From contig JAOARC010000037.1 of NCBI GenBank assembly GCA_025210745.1, positions 310,001-374,000 of the forward strand: 64,000 nucleotides of DNA, written 5' to 3'. The position numbers were made by a program, and so were the translations under genes. Origin of the DNA: Bacteriovoracaceae bacterium (lineage in GTDB: Bacteria; Bdellovibrionota; Bacteriovoracia; Bacteriovoracales; Bacteriovoracaceae). Shown here in pieces: positions 32,011-43,561 of this stretch. How positions within the stretch are numbered: position 1 is the stretch's first letter; every line of letters starts with the position of its first letter. Below the pieces are notes generated by a model. That model was not told the DNA's origin and did not search any database. It saw only the letters and a program-made list of their open reading frames with translations.

Positions 32011-32085
32011 TGGCAGGGGTGGCAGGGATCGAACCTGCGCATGTCAGAATCAAAATCTGATGTCTTACCACTTGACGACACCCCT
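32011..32085 (-). tRNA. tRNA-Gln (anticodon TTG)
   Basis: On the minus strand a 75-base tRNA folds with a 7-bp acceptor AGGGGTG/CACCCCT, D arm with AGTGGTA, a 5-bp anticodon stem TCAGA/TCTGA, loop TTTTGAT (anticodon TTG, reading CAA and CAG), and the T arm GCAGG/CCTGC with TTCGATC. The CCA end is encoded. It is close to the E. coli glutamine tRNA in sequence. It lies between a strong promoter and prs. Confidence 0.95.
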
Positions 32086-32181: not shown

Positions 32182-32195
32182 TTAAGAAATCTTAA
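32182..32195. promoter_or_regulatory. 14-base palindrome upstream of the signalling operon
   Basis: TTAAGA (32182-32187), AA, then TCTTAA (32190-32195) is a perfect inverted repeat in the space between the tRNA-Gln promoter and the gas-sensor operon. It is AT-rich, so chance is possible; it may be an operator for a dimeric regulator. Confidence 0.35.
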
Positions 32196-32264: not shown

Positions 32265-32882
32265 GTGAAAAACATTTTAATAGTAGAGGACAACAGACAC
32301 TTTAACTACTTGCTAAAGAAGTCCCTCCTAAAAAGAAATTATAATGTAAGATGCGTTTTCAATGGGGAGCAAGCAATGAAGTTTCTCACAACTTCCAACC
32401 TCGACATTGATATTATTATACTAGATCTCATGATGCCCAAAATGAATGGCGAACAGTTCTTAAAAACCCTAGATAGTAACCCCACTCTAAAAAAACCAGA
32501 TGTTTGTATTTTGTCATCTAAAATTGATAAGAATGTAATACGAGGACTTAAGAATATTTCTGTAATAGATTATTTTATTAAAGGTGATCATCTTGATGAT
32601 CTTATTCATAAAATTGAATTTTCATCGATAGTAAATGATCCAATCCAAACGGTTGCTAGTGTTTATACTCCAGAAACTCTAATGACAAGATATCAAATTA
32701 TAAGACAAACAGATGAATCGCTTTTAATTAAGAGTGAAGTTGAACTACCAACAAACTCAATAATACAAATAACACTAGATAACGAAGAAAAACTTTACAA
32801 AGTTCTAAATGTAAGTCCTCACGGCATAAGAAGTTTAGTTACTTGTCAACGAATCAACTCAACAAAAGGAAAAGTAGCATGA
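32265..32882 (+). CDS. Response regulator, receiver plus uncharacterised C-terminal domain
   Basis: Starting at the GTG of 32265, preceded by AAGGGG, gives 205 residues. The receiver (1-115) has the acidic pair E8/D9 and phospho-acceptor D54 in LDLMMPKMNG. The switch threonine is replaced by serine (ILSS) and the lysine is followed by glycine instead of proline, so the conformational response may be unusual. The last 85 residues form a small beta-rich domain, similar in pattern to PilZ folds but without the c-di-GMP arginines. It is the first gene of a seven-gene operon and overlaps the next by 4 bases. Confidence 0.8.
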   Translation: MKNILIVEDNRHFNYLLKKSLLKRNYNVRCVFNGEQAMKFLTTSNLDIDIIILDLMMPKMNGEQFLKTLDSNPTLKKPDVCILSSKIDKNVIRGLKNISVIDYFIKGDHLDDLIHKIEFSSIVNDPIQTVASVYTPETLMTRYQIIRQTDESLLIKSEVELPTNSIIQITLDNEEKLYKVLNVSPHGIRSLVTCQRINSTKGKVA

Positions 32883-33556
32883 AAAAAGTTTTAATTGTAG
32901 AAGATATGCTAAGCATTCAAAAACTATTAAAAACTATTCTCGAATCCAGAGACTATAAAGTTATTTGTACGAATAATGGAAAGGAAGCTCTAAAAGTTCT
33001 AGAACAAGAAAACTTTGACCTTATTCTACTTGATATTATGATGCCGATTATGAGTGGCGTTGAATTTTTAAAAAATTTTTCTCATAATGATAAGACGAAA
33101 ATATGCATGCTTACAGCTAAAGAAGAAAATGATTCCATAAAAGAATGTATGGACCTTGGAGCTTCAGACTACGTTTTAAAGCCTATTGATAAAAGTATTC
33201 TTTTAGAAAAAGTAAAATGTCTTGTTAATGATAGAAATGCTGTCAGAATTCCATCAATCAAATTATATGAAAATATTGAAATTCACAGTGATAAAGATAA
33301 TTTTATAGGAAAACTACTTTACTTATTTGAAGATAAAATAATCCTTGAGATGGAAGGAGATTTTGAAAATGGCCAAATTGTCTACATTAATACGGAAACC
33401 TTAAAAAAGAAAATTGGTTTTGAATTAGATGTTGTCTGTAAAATAACAGCAAAACATGAAAGTGAAGATCTAAATGGCTACGTTGCGCATTTTTATGGCT
33501 TTCAAAAAGACAAAGCAAGAAAAATAAGGTCTTACGCAATTTCTCCACCTCAATAA
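32879..33556 (+). CDS. Response regulator with PilZ-like tail, copy 2
   Basis: A 225-residue protein; the ATG at 32879 overlaps the previous stop. The receiver has E8/D9, D52 in LDIMMPIMSG, the threonine in MLTAKEEND and K in LKPIDK, all standard. The tail (about 125-225) is beta-rich and ends in KARKIRSYAI, like the closing strand and helix of PilZ domains; the c-di-GMP motifs are missing. It is clearly a tandem relative of the next gene: both share TNNGKEA, LDIMMP, MLTA and LKPID/VKPID blocks. It probably takes phosphate from one of the kinases in the operon and changes a protein partner. Confidence 0.83.
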   Translation: MKKVLIVEDMLSIQKLLKTILESRDYKVICTNNGKEALKVLEQENFDLILLDIMMPIMSGVEFLKNFSHNDKTKICMLTAKEENDSIKECMDLGASDYVLKPIDKSILLEKVKCLVNDRNAVRIPSIKLYENIEIHSDKDNFIGKLLYLFEDKIILEMEGDFENGQIVYINTETLKKKIGFELDVVCKITAKHESEDLNGYVAHFYGFQKDKARKIRSYAISPPQ

Positions 33557-33573
33557 AAAACAAAGGTGGTTGT

Positions 33574-34293
33574 ATGTCTAAAATACTAATTGTTGATGAT
33601 ATGAAGCCCATTCAAGTTCTTCTTAAAAGGAGGCTTGAGAAGGAAAAGCATGATGTTATTGTTACAAATAATGGCAAAGAGGCTTATACGGAGATTATAA
33701 ATAGCGAAGATATCGATCTTATTTTTTTAGACATTATGATGCCTGGCCAAAATGGAATTGAGTTTTTAGAAAAACATTTTAATGAATGCCGAGATAAAAA
33801 TATAAAGGTTTGTATGCTAACTGCACTTGAAGATAACGATAACATTCAAAAATGTCTTAAATTAGGTGCTATCGACTACCTAGTAAAACCAATAGATAAT
33901 GAACTCCTTCTTGAAAAGCTCGATGCTCTTCTTAACGATAACCCCAGTGGAAGATTTGCTGCAATTAAGACACTTATACCTGCAATTATTGAGCTCAACG
34001 ATATGATATACAAAAGCTCAATCATTGTTTTGTCTGAAAACAGAACATTAATAGAATCAAAACAAGAATTTATTACGCAAGAAATTATTCAAATATCAAG
34101 CCCGCACCTTGATAAGCTTATTGGTGACATCAAAATAAGTGCTCGAATTATTCAACTAAAAAAAGATAAAGATTCTTTTGTCTATTTATGTGAATTTATA
34201 GGTTTGAGTGAGAAAAAAACAAGTAAAATTAGAGAGTTAACAGTATCAGGTAAAGAAATTATTATAGAAGAAAATACTAATAGTTCAACATAG
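33574..34293 (+). CDS. Response regulator with PilZ-like tail, copy 3
   Basis: A 239-residue protein. The receiver carries D8/D9, phospho-acceptor D53 in LDIMMPGQNG, the threonine in MLTALEDND and K in VKPIDN. The C-terminal half has the same kind of beta-rich domain as the preceding gene, ending with KTSKIRELTVSG. The two tails have diverged more than the receivers, which suggests different partners. It begins 17 bases after the previous gene, preceded by AAAGGTGG. Confidence 0.83.
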   Translation: MSKILIVDDMKPIQVLLKRRLEKEKHDVIVTNNGKEAYTEIINSEDIDLIFLDIMMPGQNGIEFLEKHFNECRDKNIKVCMLTALEDNDNIQKCLKLGAIDYLVKPIDNELLLEKLDALLNDNPSGRFAAIKTLIPAIIELNDMIYKSSIIVLSENRTLIESKQEFITQEIIQISSPHLDKLIGDIKISARIIQLKKDKDSFVYLCEFIGLSEKKTSKIRELTVSGKEIIIEENTNSST

Positions 34294-34313
34294 ATATTCC
34301 GACAAGAATAGAG

Positions 34314-34991
34314 ATGAAAGGAAAAATACTCGTAGTGGAAGATAACTTAAATTTACAAACTTTAATCCAAAAGTCTTTAGATAAGGAGTTTGAAGTTATT
34401 ACCTGCTCAAATGCAGAAGAAGCTTATGATAAATTCGAACAAGAAGACTTTTTTCTTGTTCTTTTAGATATCAATCTTCCAGGTATGAGTGGCTATGAGT
34501 TTGCCGGCACTATCAAATCTTTAGCCGAAACTCAAAATCCATTTATTCTTGTTATGTCGGCAAATGCATCTAATGCTGCAAAACTAACAGCATTAAATTT
34601 AGGAGCGATAGGATTTTTAGAAAAACCTTTTGATATAAGATATTTAAGAAAGCTTGCTCAAAACTTATTCACCCATCAAGTAAAAGAATATGGCCCACAA
34701 CATAACTATGGCGATATAGAAATCGACTTTTCTAAGTCAAAAATTTCCATTCATGAACAACAAATCTGTCTTACTCAAGCTGAAATAAATATTTTAAAAG
34801 AACTCGTTTCTAATTCAGATAGTGAAGTTTCTAGAGAACGACTCTTCCTAGTTAGTGGGAACCACAAGTCTGAAGCTGGAACAAGAGTTGTCGACACTCA
34901 TATTTCAAGCATTAGAAAAAAAATCAAAGACTCTAAGATAGAGATAAAGTCCATCTATGGAAAAGGATATAAAATTAATAAAGCTGCATAA
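34314..34991 (+). CDS. OmpR/PhoB-family response regulator
   Basis: A 225-residue regulator with a receiver (D52 in LDINLPGMSG; lysine in EKPFD) and a winged-helix DNA-binding domain from about 135. The recognition helix region is RVVDTHISSIRKKI and the wing ends with SIYGKGYKIN, the usual OmpR hallmark. This is the only gene in the operon that should bind DNA, so it is the likely transcription output of the pathway, perhaps including its own promoter dyads at 32182 and 32214. It starts 20 bases after the third receiver gene. Confidence 0.88.
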   Translation: MKGKILVVEDNLNLQTLIQKSLDKEFEVITCSNAEEAYDKFEQEDFFLVLLDINLPGMSGYEFAGTIKSLAETQNPFILVMSANASNAAKLTALNLGAIGFLEKPFDIRYLRKLAQNLFTHQVKEYGPQHNYGDIEIDFSKSKISIHEQQICLTQAEINILKELVSNSDSEVSRERLFLVSGNHKSEAGTRVVDTHISSIRKKIKDSKIEIKSIYGKGYKINKAA

Positions 34992-35006
34992 ACAAAGGGA
35001 GACTTG

Positions 35007-36173
35007 GTGAAATTTAACATACTTTTTATAGATGACGAAAAAGACATTCTAGCCGCATATCAAAGATTACTTGAATCAAATTCAAAAAAATCAAAACTAG
35101 ATGACTTACTCGGAGAGCTTACGGATGATATTCCTGAAGAAAAAAAGTTTACACATGAAGACCAATATAATTTCTTTCAAGCCTCTCAAGGACAAGATGG
35201 TATTGATATTGTAAAAAAGCAATTAGAACTTAAAGACCCTATCAGCTTATGTTTTGTTGACTTCAGAATGCCACCGGGTCTAAACGGTAAGGATACAATT
35301 AAAGCTATAAGACAGATTGATAAAAATATAGAAATTGTACTAGTTACAGCTTATTCTGACATCAATCTTGAAGATATTGTACAAGAAGTTGGAACTCCAG
35401 AAAAACTGTTGTTTCTAAAGAAGCCTTTTGATAATAAAGAAGTTAGTCAACTTATCCTAAATTTAACAAGAAAATATTTTGATGCGAGGGTAAGAGAAAA
35501 TTTTGTCTCAAGTGTAACACATGAACTCAAGACTCCCCTAGCTTCCATATTAGGTTTTTCACAACTTTTACTTGAAGAAGAATTATCTGAAGATCAAAGA
35601 GATTTTATTGGAACTATATTAGATAGTGCGATTCTCATGAAAGAACAAGTTGATGATCTTTTATCTGTTGCTCATATCGAAAGAACAGGACTTAAACTTA
35701 ATAAAAACACTGTAAGTGTATTAGAAATTACGAATGAAGTATCTCAAATGATGCAACCACTTTTTAAAAATGGTCCTCTTGATTTTAAAGTTGAATGCCC
35801 TGAAGACTTTAGTATAAATGTAGATAAAAATAAATTCAAACAATGTTTAATTAATCTTATTACAAACGCTCGAAAATTTACTCATGCAGGCTTTGTTAAA
35901 CTAAATGTAAAAAAAGATATTCAAGGCTTTTCTTTTGAAGTTGAAGATTCGGGAATAGGTATTTCGCAAGAAAAAATTGAGAAAGTATTTGATCGTTTCT
36001 TTAGAGTAGAAGATGAACATCACAATACACCTGGTCTTGGGCTCGGACTTGCCATTGTTAAAAATATACTTGATGCTCACGAGCTTAAAATACATGTTGA
36101 AAGTCAATTAGGTAAAGGCTCAAAGTTTGTTATTAAATCGATCAATCACGAAGAATTAAAAGAGGTAGCATGA
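35007..36173 (+). CDS. Receiver-histidine kinase hybrid
   Basis: A 388-residue protein with an N-terminal receiver and a C-terminal kinase, an order opposite to the usual hybrid. The receiver holds D85 in VDFRMPPGLNG but has an insertion of about 30 acidic residues after the first helix. The kinase has the H box with H172 in VTHELKTPLASILGF, then the N box NLITNARKF, G1 DSGIG and GLGLGLAIV, so it can bind ATP. No membrane segment is present, so input comes from the receiver or a soluble partner. The start is the GTG at 35007 after GGGAG. It overlaps the H-NOX gene by 4 bases. Confidence 0.88.
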   Translation: MKFNILFIDDEKDILAAYQRLLESNSKKSKLDDLLGELTDDIPEEKKFTHEDQYNFFQASQGQDGIDIVKKQLELKDPISLCFVDFRMPPGLNGKDTIKAIRQIDKNIEIVLVTAYSDINLEDIVQEVGTPEKLLFLKKPFDNKEVSQLILNLTRKYFDARVRENFVSSVTHELKTPLASILGFSQLLLEEELSEDQRDFIGTILDSAILMKEQVDDLLSVAHIERTGLKLNKNTVSVLEITNEVSQMMQPLFKNGPLDFKVECPEDFSINVDKNKFKQCLINLITNARKFTHAGFVKLNVKKDIQGFSFEVEDSGIGISQEKIEKVFDRFFRVEDEHHNTPGLGLGLAIVKNILDAHELKIHVESQLGKGSKFVIKSINHEELKEVA

Positions 36174-36700
36174 AAGGAATTGTATTTAATATTTTTCAAT
36201 CATTTGTTGAAAAGAATATGGGAGAAGATGCTTGGGATGAAGTGTTGGAAGAAGCACAAATCGAACAAGATTTTTTTGTAGCTCCTGAAACCTACGAAGA
36301 CAAAGATTTTCTTACACTAGTAACTCATACAATTGAAAAGTTTAAACTTGTACCCTCGGAAGCAATAAGACTGTTTGGAAACTTTTCCTTTCCTCTTCTC
36401 ATATCAAAAGTACCTCAATTTAAAGAAGAATTCAAAAGTGCCAAAGACTTCTTAAAAGGGCTTGATTCAATTATACACGTTGAAGTTAGAAAACTTTTAC
36501 CAGGAGCTAAAACGCCACGTTTCTACCACAAGGAAAGAGATGATGGGTCATTAGAGCTAGAATATGAATCAGACAGAAATTTGCCTGATTTTGTTATTGG
36601 ACTCATAGAAGGCTTAGGTAAGCACTATAAAGAAGAAATAAAGGTTCAACTTATGGGAAATAATAACAATAAATATCAATTTTTAGTGGAGTTTGCTTGA
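36170..36700 (+). CDS. H-NOX heme nitric oxide sensor
   Basis: A 176-residue protein that matches H-NOX throughout: MKGIVFNIFQSFVEK at the start, the heme-ligating histidine H103 in IIHVEVRKLLPGA, P116, and the heme-propionate motif Y132-x-S134-x-R136 (YESDR). These fit the positions H102, P115, Y131, S133 and R135 of the Thermoanaerobacter protein. The distal tyrosine Y140 of oxygen-binding members aligns with F141 here, so this one should bind NO and not O2. Soluble H-NOX proteins control a partner kinase. The kinase gene that follows begins within the stop codon of this gene. Confidence 0.88.
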   Translation: MKGIVFNIFQSFVEKNMGEDAWDEVLEEAQIEQDFFVAPETYEDKDFLTLVTHTIEKFKLVPSEAIRLFGNFSFPLLISKVPQFKEEFKSAKDFLKGLDSIIHVEVRKLLPGAKTPRFYHKERDDGSLELEYESDRNLPDFVIGLIEGLGKHYKEEIKVQLMGNNNNKYQFLVEFA

Positions 36701-37995
36701 TAGACTTTCAAAAAGAAATAGATAAATTAAAAAAAAGACTCATAAGAGAAAAAAAATCTAAAGAAGCTTTAGAAAAGATTATTGAAGATCGATCTCGCGA
36801 TCTATTTTTATCCTATGAGTTCAGTAAAAAAGTTCTTGATAGTGTTGATAACTTAATTCTAACAACCGATGAAAACCTTAAAATAATTAGCAATAACGAG
36901 TCTTGGGGACAATCTGTCCAGAACTTAAAAGGACAGTACTTATATAAAGTTTTCAAACTCGTTGAAACTGAAAATAAATTAAAAGACAAAATTTTAAATG
37001 ATGCTTCTTACGAAGGTGAACTTAGTCTACAACTAGACAATAAAGTGATTCCCGTTTATGTAAAAGGACATAGAATTAATACGGAAAAAATTATTAATTA
37101 TGTTTTTTCACTTGTTGATCTCACACGAATGAAAGAAATTGAAAAAGAAAGAACAGAGCTTCAAGAAAGACTTATAAAGAGTGCATATGCAGACGGTGTT
37201 ACGGAAAGTGCCATTGCTGTATTGCACAATATTGGAAATGTCCTAACTGCTTTAAACTCAAGGATATCAAACAAGTCTGAAATTAGCGAGCTTCAAAAAA
37301 TGTCAAAGATTATGGATATATTTTCTCAAAAGCAAAGTGAGCTATCTAAAGAAAAACAGAAAGAAATTTTAAAAGTGATGCAAGATTCATTTGATAAGTC
37401 TCTTGATGAAATGAATGATCTGTATTCTTTTGTTTCTAGCAAATGCTCTCATATAGCAAATATTATTTCCTCACAACAAAAATATGCTAATTTAAAAGAA
37501 AACATTCGAACCAAAACAAATCTTTTGACGATTATAGATGACTGCCTTGAAATGATAAGCGACCGCTTTAAAAACAGAGGTATTAAAGTTTATATAGAAA
37601 GAGATGAAATACCCAAAATCATGTCTGAAAAAATTGGTTTATCGCAAGTTGTACTTAATCTTTTTACAAATGCAATGGAATCTATTGATGAAAAAGTTAT
37701 GCTTACTAAATGTAAAGATGAACAAAGTATACAAATTACTTTTTCACAAAATCAGAGTTTTCTAACAATGTCAGTACATGATACAGGTATGGGAGTTGAA
37801 CCAGACAAACTCAAAGAACTTTTTAACTTTGGCTATTCAACTAAAAATAGGAGCTCAGGCTTTGGTCTTCACAACTGTGCAAACTATATGAAAAATAATA
37901 ATGGTAAAATTACCATAAAATCACAAGGAAGATATAAAGGCGCTACAGTAGAACTTTCATTTGAGATTGAAGAAACACTAAAAAAAGTAGCTTAA
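36697..37995 (+). CDS. PAS-containing histidine kinase, partner of the H-NOX sensor
   Basis: A 432-residue soluble kinase. Residues 1-40 are coiled coil, 45-145 form a PAS domain, then comes the phospho-acceptor helix with H177 in VLHNIGNVLTALNSRI. The H-N-I-G-N box is unlike classic HisKA (H-E-L-K-T-P) and is found in a subset of kinases linked to heme sensors. The ATPase domain has NLFTNAMESID, DTGMGV and GFGLHNC. The TTG start overlaps the H-NOX stop codon, which is the strongest sign that the two form a signalling pair. Its output is probably one of the four receivers upstream. The stop overlaps the convergent PBP gene by 4 bases. Confidence 0.85.
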   Translation: MIDFQKEIDKLKKRLIREKKSKEALEKIIEDRSRDLFLSYEFSKKVLDSVDNLILTTDENLKIISNNESWGQSVQNLKGQYLYKVFKLVETENKLKDKILNDASYEGELSLQLDNKVIPVYVKGHRINTEKIINYVFSLVDLTRMKEIEKERTELQERLIKSAYADGVTESAIAVLHNIGNVLTALNSRISNKSEISELQKMSKIMDIFSQKQSELSKEKQKEILKVMQDSFDKSLDEMNDLYSFVSSKCSHIANIISSQQKYANLKENIRTKTNLLTIIDDCLEMISDRFKNRGIKVYIERDEIPKIMSEKIGLSQVVLNLFTNAMESIDEKVMLTKCKDEQSIQITFSQNQSFLTMSVHDTGMGVEPDKLKELFNFGYSTKNRSSGFGLHNCANYMKNNNGKITIKSQGRYKGATVELSFEIEETLKKVA

Positions 37996-41294: not shown

Positions 41295-43502
41295 TTAAAA
41301 CCTACTTGGTCCGTACATAAAGTTCATTGAACCACCTGGTGCGGACCATCCATTTTGATATAATCCCATTGGCACCGAATATTGATTGTTGTTAAAACCA
41401 CCAAAAGAAGCTCCTGACATAAATGATCCCTGCATTCCATAATACATACTCGGATTATTATAAAGGGATGAATTCATTCCATTATTATAACCAGAGTTCA
41501 TACTAAACTGGGGGTACATATTATTCTGAAAACCAGAGTTCATATTAAACTGAGGGTACATACTAGTTTGGAAACTAGAATTATATCCTCCATTAAGTCC
41601 CAAATTAGAACTTGCCATCCCTCTATTTTGTCCCCCTTGAAACTTAAAATTATACTCGGGCTTTGTCGGCGATAGCTCTTTACTATAAGCTTTTTGTTTT
41701 TTTTCTTTTTGTTCTTTTGTCAAACCAAGATATTCATCTCTTTGTGCTTCTAAGCTTTTCCACTTACTTTTTTGAGCTTCATAGTGAGCTTTCATTTTTT
41801 TACAATTTTCCATTTCATAATTTAAAGCTTCTACATCTGTTTTAATTTGCTCTTCGTATTTTGAGATACATGATCTTAAAGCATATTGATTCCCACCAGA
41901 TTTTTGCTGACACTGTTGCATAATCTGTTGACTCTGTCTCATTACAGCTTGAGAATATCCCTGAGAAACATTAGTTTGATTTTTACATTCAGATAATAAC
42001 TTTTCATATTTTATTGACTTATAAGAGTTTGGTTTAGTTATTAGCTTTAGCTTATCATCATAATTATCCATGGCAACTTGATTAAATTCATTTGCTTTTT
42101 TATGTAAAGAACCTAGACTAACAAGTCTTGACTCTTTAATTTTAAAATTTTTTGTTTTAGGCACTACTTCCTTGCAGGACTTACCAGATCCGTATGCTTC
42201 ACAAGCTAACTTTAAAGTAATTATATTTTGATGCATTATCTTTGATGTATCTTTCCATTTTTTACTATTTAACTTTGGCTTTAAAGTTAATAAAGTTAGT
42301 TTTTTGTAATCACCTGCTGTAAAATAAGGTTCTTTTATATAATCAGCTAATTCATCTGTTTTCTGAGAAATCTTTTCTTTAAGTTCTTTTGCATAGTCAT
42401 AGTTTCCATTAGATCTAGCGAGATTATATTCTTTAATCATATTAACTAAAAGGTTTGGATTCATAGTATCAATATCATCATGGTTCTTGTCAGAAAAGTT
42501 TTTATCAACAATAAGTCTTTTAAAGTCCTTCATAACTTGATTATAATAATCAATATCTAGCTGCGATAAATCCTCATCCTTTACATGAGAATCAAAGTTT
42601 TCTTTGGCTTTTTTCATCTCATCCAGTAACAGTTTATTTCTCACAGACAAAAGATTTTCATAAAGTTGATCATTACCCAAGAAGGCTTCTAAACCATTCT
42701 CTATAGCTTTATAATCTTGTTTTTGACACAAAACTTGTGCTTTACTATGAAGAGCATTAAGCTCAACATCCGAACGAGATAAATGATAAGTAGGTACTGA
42801 ATCTATCTTTTCATAAAAATAACATTCATTATTTTCAAATAGGTTTTTTTGAGAATTAACTTTTTTACTTTCACTTGCGATAGGCCCTTTTGAAGCATAA
42901 ATGACTTCGGCTGTCACATTAGCATTATGAGTAACCTCTTTTAGTTCCTCTCTAAGAAGTTTACTTTTATCCCAAGTTCTCTTTCCCTCAACCTCTTTTA
43001 TGCCAACATTTTCTTCCATACATTTATAGAAACCTGAAAGTGTTGGAAGATACGCTTTTGTTCTTTGCTTAATTTCTTGAGTTTTATCATCTCTATATGT
43101 TACGGAATAATCACAAGGGCTACTTCCCTCACAGTTTTTTCTAATTTTTACTTCATATATATATTTATCAAGACTAGAGTCATACTTAAGAGTTGGCATT
43201 AACATTGAACTACAATTACCTATTATTGGTGAGTTTAAAGATGCCGAAATAACATCTCCATTTGAAGCGGCACCAATAACTATTTCTTTTTGTTTAGAAG
43301 GTATCAAGCCTAATAAATGAGAAAGTGGCAAAGAAGATTGGTCTTTTGAAGTACACTTTCTTTTAACTTGTGCTGAGCTAATATTATCTTTTAGTTTTTT
43401 ATCTGCTTCATCATCTGAAGTATTATAGCCAATATCAACGTATCTACTAGTTTGTGCAAATAAATTACTAAGTGCTATTAAAAATATAATAAATAACTTC
43501 AT
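41295..43502 (-). CDS. Large secreted protein with Met/Asn/Gly/Tyr-rich tail
   Basis: A 735-residue protein, ATG at 43502 with GAGG upstream, signal peptide ending FAQ. The first 220 residues contain several cysteines in pairs (for example GSSPCDYS), followed by a long helical, charged middle (residues 250-620, coiled-coil-like) and a low-complexity tail of about 110 residues made of Met, Asn, Gly, Tyr, Ser and Phe. The tail contains two tandem 14-residue repeats. No family is recognised. Such tails are seen in adhesive or self-assembling surface proteins. It follows a second secreted gene by 59 bases, on the same strand. Confidence 0.65.
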   Translation of the reverse strand: MKLFIIFLIALSNLFAQTSRYVDIGYNTSDDEADKKLKDNISSAQVKRKCTSKDQSSLPLSHLLGLIPSKQKEIVIGAASNGDVISASLNSPIIGNCSSMLMPTLKYDSSLDKYIYEVKIRKNCEGSSPCDYSVTYRDDKTQEIKQRTKAYLPTLSGFYKCMEENVGIKEVEGKRTWDKSKLLREELKEVTHNANVTAEVIYASKGPIASESKKVNSQKNLFENNECYFYEKIDSVPTYHLSRSDVELNALHSKAQVLCQKQDYKAIENGLEAFLGNDQLYENLLSVRNKLLLDEMKKAKENFDSHVKDEDLSQLDIDYYNQVMKDFKRLIVDKNFSDKNHDDIDTMNPNLLVNMIKEYNLARSNGNYDYAKELKEKISQKTDELADYIKEPYFTAGDYKKLTLLTLKPKLNSKKWKDTSKIMHQNIITLKLACEAYGSGKSCKEVVPKTKNFKIKESRLVSLGSLHKKANEFNQVAMDNYDDKLKLITKPNSYKSIKYEKLLSECKNQTNVSQGYSQAVMRQSQQIMQQCQQKSGGNQYALRSCISKYEEQIKTDVEALNYEMENCKKMKAHYEAQKSKWKSLEAQRDEYLGLTKEQKEKKQKAYSKELSPTKPEYNFKFQGGQNRGMASSNLGLNGGYNSSFQTSMYPQFNMNSGFQNNMYPQFSMNSGYNNGMNSSLYNNPSMYYGMQGSFMSGASFGGFNNNQYSVPMGLYQNGWSAPGGSMNFMYGPSRF
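41478..41561 (-). repeat. Two tandem 42-base repeats in the tail of the secreted protein
   Basis: The units 41520-41561 and 41478-41519 encode MYPQFNMNSGFQNN and MYPQFSMNSGYNNG. The copies differ at a few bases. Further degenerate Asn/Gly/Tyr segments flank them. Confidence 0.8.
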
Positions 43503-43561
43503 ATCCAACCTCGGTTCTATACAAGATCTTTATCGGATATTTAAAGAAAAACTTGAGTATT

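Follow-up and report, generated by a model that had tools for sequence, protein, structure and literature searches.

A set of seven co-directional genes is found on the plus strand at positions 32265-37995 of the window, which is the whole stretch of 64,000 nucleotides of Bacteriovoracaceae DNA analysed here. The genes, taken from the ORF list, and the tRNA gene to their left are as follows.

tRNA-Gln(ttg), 32011..32085, minus strand: left border of the insertion junction, outside the system (ARAGORN)
RR1, 32265..32882, plus strand: REC domain and short PilZ-like tail, GTG start (Pfam REC 2e-17)
RR2, 32879..33556, plus strand: REC domain and PilZ-like tail (Pfam REC 8e-30; sister to RR3)
RR3, 33574..34293, plus strand: REC domain and predicted PilZ-fold tail, residues ~124-225 (AF2, Foldseek; Pfam PilZ 0.0025)
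RR4, 34314..34991, plus strand: OmpR/PhoB-type DNA-binding response regulator (Pfam REC 6e-22, Trans_reg_C 9e-14)
RHK, 35007..36173, plus strand: REC-HisKA-HATPase fusion with D85 in "DFRMPPG" and H172 (Pfam; subfamily kept in relatives)
H-NOX, 36170..36700, plus strand: predicted stand-alone heme sensor (Pfam HNOB 138 bits; residues)
Gene 7, 36697..37995, plus strand: second kinase, with H-box VLHNIGNVLT (H177), GHKL ATPase and TTG start (HATPase_c 6e-14)

The spacings between the seven genes are -4, 17, 20, 15, -4 and -4 bases. A preliminary description of this DNA had claimed seven genes here with gaps of 20 bases or less, and all seven ORFs are indeed found, with a largest gap of 20. It had also claimed mostly overlapping stop and start codons, which is an overstatement, as overlap occurs at three of the six junctions. 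The hnox gene overlaps both RHK and the soluble kinase gene that adjoins it (36170-36700 and 36697-37995) by 4 bases each, and the TTG start of gene 7 overlaps the hnox stop codon. Pfam domains agree with the three tail-bearing receivers, OmpR-type DNA binder, receiver-kinase hybrid and H-NOX protein originally described.

REC domains are found by Pfam in genes 1-5, with E-values of 2e-17 to 8e-30 and a weaker 4e-11 in RHK. All five REC domains keep the acid pair, phosphoacceptor Asp, Thr/Ser and Lys; both kinase boxes and the H-NOX heme ligand are likewise intact, and none of the reading frames of the operon is broken. Scans for promoters and terminators around the operon are no richer than shuffled sequence. 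A perfect inverted repeat, TTAAGAAATCTTAA, lies upstream at 32182-32195, but its frequency is at chance level. Further along the window, a minus-strand ORF of 737 aa (41295-43508) has a C-terminal, repeat-like region rich in Asn, Gly, Met and Tyr. The genome to which the window belongs measures 2.72 Mb and is 88% complete.

Conservation of the system was assessed in a family sample of 129 genomes, to which the class-level set is identical. H-NOX is found in 21 of the 129 genomes. In the named genomes, a single H-NOX query gave no match, while a four-row H-NOX alignment used as query found relatives missed by the single sequence. The gene settings of these proteins are diverse, and include hybrid kinases, an HNOBA-containing kinase and PAS kinases. 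Pfam analysis of the H-NOX-adjacent kinase of locus L031 (9289-10788) found an HNOBA domain, of the sort known from soluble guanylate cyclase; the H-NOX-adjacent kinases of L026, L027, L034 and L035, of 496-500 aa, are similar to it. At locus L046 (8686-9021, genome G033, contig C347), H-NOX is split across two overlapping frames, likely through a frameshift or assembly error.

The preliminary description had suggested a search for the same gene order in related genomes. Four genomes, each of a different genus, share a five-gene core of RR4, a tailed response regulator, RHK, H-NOX and an LHNIGN kinase, namely that of the window, G051 (recorded as Bacteriovorax sp. UBA1852), G020 (Bacteriovoracia bacterium Co_bin.260) and G034 (uncultured Bacteriovoracaceae bacterium H3_Bin_197_1). 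Since the set recurs in three other genera, it is not a chance arrangement. The order of RHK, H-NOX and kinase is kept in all four operons, whereas the number and order of response regulators differ in the window, which has RR1-RR2-RR3 followed by RR4 where the other three have RR4 followed by one tailed response regulator. Two further genomes have related sets lacking hnox. G038 contains RR4, a tailed response regulator, RHK and an LHNIGN kinase, with an HD-domain protein replacing H-NOX, and G050 contains a tailed response regulator, RHK, an HD protein and an LHSIGN kinase. At both loci (L081, 6829-12118, and L083, 8013-12585), an HD_5 protein of 444-447 aa stands where H-NOX would be.

In the window, the operon lies between ychF-pth-prs-tRNA-Gln and a penicillin-binding protein gene. 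The junction between prs/tRNA-Gln and the penicillin-binding protein gene is empty in G020, G034, G051 and G038, and G020, G034 and G051 carry their operons elsewhere. Therefore, the operon of the window was either gained at this junction or moved to it. In G018, of the same genus, the junction contains an lgt gene; H-NOX has no match in that genome, which is only about 90% complete.

The HNOB domain of gene 6 scores 138 bits compared to a curated cut-off of 25.5 (Pfam), and relatives of the protein include H-NOX proteins of solved structure. The proximal histidine H103, P116 and the YxSxR heme motif (Y132/S134/R136) are all present, and F141 occupies the distal tyrosine site, so that the pocket has no distal Tyr at that one residue; these residues are exactly as first described, and the NO-type pocket is borne out. 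It has been established that a distal tyrosine marks O2-binding H-NOX proteins (PMC8738867). By this rule, F141 is what an NO-selective H-NOX should carry, and NO is the presumed ligand. The H-NOX of the G034 operon (L044, 1756-2292) has several C-terminal cysteines that resemble the zinc-site type and are absent there from the window, G051 and G020 proteins.

Gene 7 had been described as a PAS kinase. The kinase ATPase is confirmed (HATPase_c 6e-14), but Pfam finds no significant PAS domain, although a longer homologue at locus L041 has one. Pfam also does not find a HisKA DHp domain, and the LHNIGN box is present instead. The VLHNIGN H-box is kept in gene 7 and its operon homologues, while elsewhere in the family AHE(I/L)NNP-type boxes are frequent among the kinases next to H-NOX. 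HisKA kinases have an acidic residue after the histidine, which the HNxxN box lacks, and a motif search of the open-licence literature found no characterised example; the kinase activity of gene 7 is therefore presumed. The strings LHNxGN and RMPPGWDG are likewise not mentioned in the open-licence literature searched.

Kinases of this type tend to be encoded close to a receiver with the motif D-x-RMPPG. Among kinases gathered from a phylum sample by similarity to gene 7 only, such a receiver is encoded by the next gene at 10 of 11 LHNxGN-type loci in the family (L160-L170) and within two genes at 6 of 8 outside it (L184-L191, where one receiver is two genes away and the box of L191 is LHNTGN). 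Related kinases without the box (L192-L203) have the receiver at none of 12 loci, and the background frequency of the motif is 3 in 409 genes. Pooled, this gives 16/19 boxed loci compared to 0/12 unboxed (Fisher p = 3e-6), an optimistic value because the loci share ancestry and the in-family set is where the rule was first noticed. The out-of-family sample (6/8 compared to 0/12) is the cleaner test. These receivers occur either as stand-alone proteins of 166-180 aa or fused to HisKA-HATPase as in RHK, and thus the partner common to these loci is the REC domain and not the kinase core of RHK. Three of the pairs (L162, L168 and L170) have periplasmic binding protein genes alongside.

RHK itself retains H172, N287, D314 and the glycine-rich boxes of the kinase core, and has no sensor domain besides REC. 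The D-x-RMPPG pattern, searched at the DNA level, has exactly one match in the window's genome, which is the REC domain of RHK. Relatives of RHK at loci without H-NOX are found in six more genomes. In G043 and G120-G122, RR4 and RHK occur with neither H-NOX nor an LHNIGN kinase beside them, so RHK and RR4 form a separable unit.

A second VLHNIGN kinase is present in the window's genome (L166 in G000, contig C11, 6876-9535, minus strand). Directly upstream of it is the genome's only FIST-domain gene, which encodes a NosP-type sensor fold. In this kinase the glycine-rich box of the ATP lid is altered, with DFDLH replacing GFGLH, and there is no RMPPG receiver near it. A general association of FIST genes with LHNxGN kinases was ruled out, as LHNxGN or RMPPG matches are absent near 46 other FIST loci (30 of which were scanned with ~1.5 kb of flank). 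Because the FIST pairing is not seen at those 46 loci, the convergence of two NO inputs on RHK is hypothetical and derives from a single genome. More broadly, LHNxGN kinases and D-x-RMPPG receivers may be a dedicated, previously undescribed pair to which different outputs and different inputs (H-NOX, HD-domain protein, periplasmic binding proteins and perhaps NosP) can be fitted, with the H-NOX- and FIST-linked LHNIGN kinases of the window's genome converging on RHK as its single RMPPG receiver; this proposal is tentative, and somewhat more doubtful than not. The adjacency of LHNxGN kinase and RMPPG receiver offers a testable partner rule for a kinase type without an assigned partner in the sources searched.

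The tails of RR1-RR3 comprise about 85-115 residues after REC. A fold search with full-length RR3 (AF2 pLDDT 89) was swamped by REC matches, and therefore the tail was modelled alone. The resulting AF2 model, made with 18 sequences, has a pLDDT of 87 and a pTM of 0.78, and contains six strands and a C-terminal helix. In a Foldseek search against the PDB, the first 40 matches are almost without exception PilZ proteins, including MotI/DgrA, PP4397, Alg44, MapZ, VCA0042 and YcgR, with a best E-value of 4e-5 and a TMq of up to 0.72; the Pfam PilZ match in RR3 reaches only 0.0025, below cut-off. The tails of RR1-RR3 are thus predicted to have the PilZ fold, by model for RR3 and by alignment for RR1 and RR2. 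The "unusual tails" noted earlier on three receivers are real, and AF2 and Foldseek give them an identity. "REC-PilZ" was not found as the subject of any paper in the open-licence literature.

The c-di-GMP-binding motifs are incomplete in these tails. RR1-RR3 all lack D/NxSxxG in the aligned strand, and a motif scan finds RxxxR only in RR2 among the three (RNAVR). The two motifs never occur together in RR1-RR3 or in 20 aligned relatives. The string NVSPHG occurs in RR1 at residue 182, towards the end of the tail and off the aligned motif position. The window's genome encodes two GGDEF proteins. Because D/NxSxxG is missing and RxxxR is found only in RR2, direct c-di-GMP sensing by RR3 appears unlikely, and protein interaction is the likelier role of its PilZ-fold tail. 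At E ≤ 0.001, the RR3-type tail has relatives in 21 of the 129 family genomes, the weakest of them close to that limit. RR2 and RR3 are each other's closest match (39% identity, support 91/86), suggesting that they arose by duplication. In contrast, RR1 clusters with short-tailed response regulators of G043, G045 and G046 (support 98/95), and in G043 the response regulator of this type sits between RR4 and RHK.

Taken together, gene content and motifs point to an NO-responsive two-tier His-Asp relay with its kinases in series, a reading to which we assign a probability of roughly 0.5. Soluble H-NOX would bind NO and alter autophosphorylation of the adjacent VLHNIGN kinase (gene 7, H177), which would phosphorylate the N-terminal REC of RHK (D85, RMPPG type). 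The phosphorylated REC would set the kinase or phosphatase activity of the RHK HisKA-HATPase (H172), and H172 would serve the four downstream response regulators, RR4 and RR1-RR3. RR4 would change transcription, and RR1-RR3 would act by PilZ-fold tails without the full c-di-GMP motif, probably through protein interaction. The step from gene 7 to the RHK REC is proposed because of the partner adjacency across loci and the sole RMPPG receiver in the genome, and the step from RHK to the response regulators because RR4 accompanies RHK at loci without gene 7 (G043, G120-G122). The sequences themselves establish the seven genes, their domains and catalytic residues, the core kept in relatives and the adjacency of kinase and receiver at many loci. 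We infer NO as ligand, the sign of regulation, the serial direction, RHK-to-regulator phosphotransfer and the outputs; adjacency gives no direction of phosphate flow. The H-NOX, two-kinase, multi-receiver phosphorelay of the preliminary description is thus upheld by anatomy and conserved core, while its two kinases both feeding four receivers give way to a series, the likeliest arrangement given the VLHNIGN/RMPPG adjacency.

Kinases acting in parallel have perhaps half the claim of the series. Here H-NOX would control gene 7, RHK would sense something else, and each would phosphorylate shared response regulators independently, as in Shewanella, where HnoK (responding to NO) and HnoS (to another signal) both feed HnoB, HnoC and HnoD (PMC6335343). 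That the RHK subfamily occurs without H-NOX or a neighbouring LHNIGN kinase in G043 and G120-G122 means that RHK can act alone; however, its sensor is REC alone, of a type that is near-constant beside LHNxGN kinases, the stand-alone form included. H-NOX could also have RHK as a target, alone or together with gene 7. Direct regulation of RHK, with gene 7 as a phosphatase or second input, would fit the 4-base overlap by which hnox follows rhk, the gene order common to the four operons, and the H-NOX genes that adjoin HisKA kinases elsewhere in the family. It is nonetheless unlikely, as a kinase follows hnox, like gene 7, at nearly all other family H-NOX loci with an adjacent kinase. Least probable is that H-NOX senses something other than NO, such as redox state or CO, or that the locus is a decaying remnant. 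The ligand is read from residues only, and heme-free H-NOX of Vibrio cholerae is reported to answer oxidation via cysteines (PMC7108781). The window H-NOX has zero cysteines, so this cysteine-based response does not apply; moreover, no catalytic or heme residue has been lost and the frames are unbroken.

If the serial relay is correct, NO would act via two steps on transcription and on three outputs at the protein level, in a lineage known for predation. Lineages of this family include predators, and NO from a host or prey, the source put forward in the preliminary description, may be the signal. In Bacteriovoracia, the locus would represent an H-NOX relay with PilZ-fold regulators, not c-di-GMP enzymes, as its end points; no work on H-NOX in Bacteriovorax was found in the open-licence literature.

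PilZ c-di-GMP receptors (YcgR, VCA0042, Alg44, MotI) resemble the window tails in the predicted six-strand barrel and helix and in the Foldseek matches, but the tails are only 7-17% identical to them, have incomplete motifs and a Pfam PilZ match below cut-off, and are fused to REC. NosP-NosK-NosR, a FIST-domain NO sensor with its kinase and response regulator (PMC12570481), likewise places a soluble NO sensor on an adjacent kinase and has a response regulator with a degenerate c-di-GMP-type output domain; the sensor fold differs, and the FIST gene of the window's genome lies outside the operon.

The closest precedent is the Hno network of Shewanella oneidensis and Vibrio cholerae, with H-NOX, HnoK, HnoS, HnoB, HnoC and HnoD (PMC6335343, PMC8738867). 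In Shewanella, two kinases integrate on three response regulators, one DNA-binding and one a degenerate HD-GYP protein (PMC6335343). Common to both systems are H-NOX beside a kinase, two kinases, and branching to several response regulators including a transcription factor, and the Hno regulator with a degenerate c-di-GMP-type output is a further likeness. The gene set, at first reported as unrecognised, thus has a known counterpart in the branching Shewanella network of two kinases and three regulators, and is distinct in its outputs, its REC-kinase intermediate and its kinase box. Unlike Hno, the window has an OmpR-type response regulator and three REC-PilZ-fold ones as outputs, and Pfam finds no EAL or HD-GYP response regulator among the seven genes. 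RHK, also unlike the second kinase of Hno, joins REC to HisKA and has a receiver of the type that goes with the box of gene 7, and gene 7 has LHNIGN compared to the AHExNNP-type box common in the other H-NOX-adjacent kinases seen. Given the Shewanella precedent, the window system is therefore best described as a variant, with other outputs, a REC-kinase intermediate and another kinase box.
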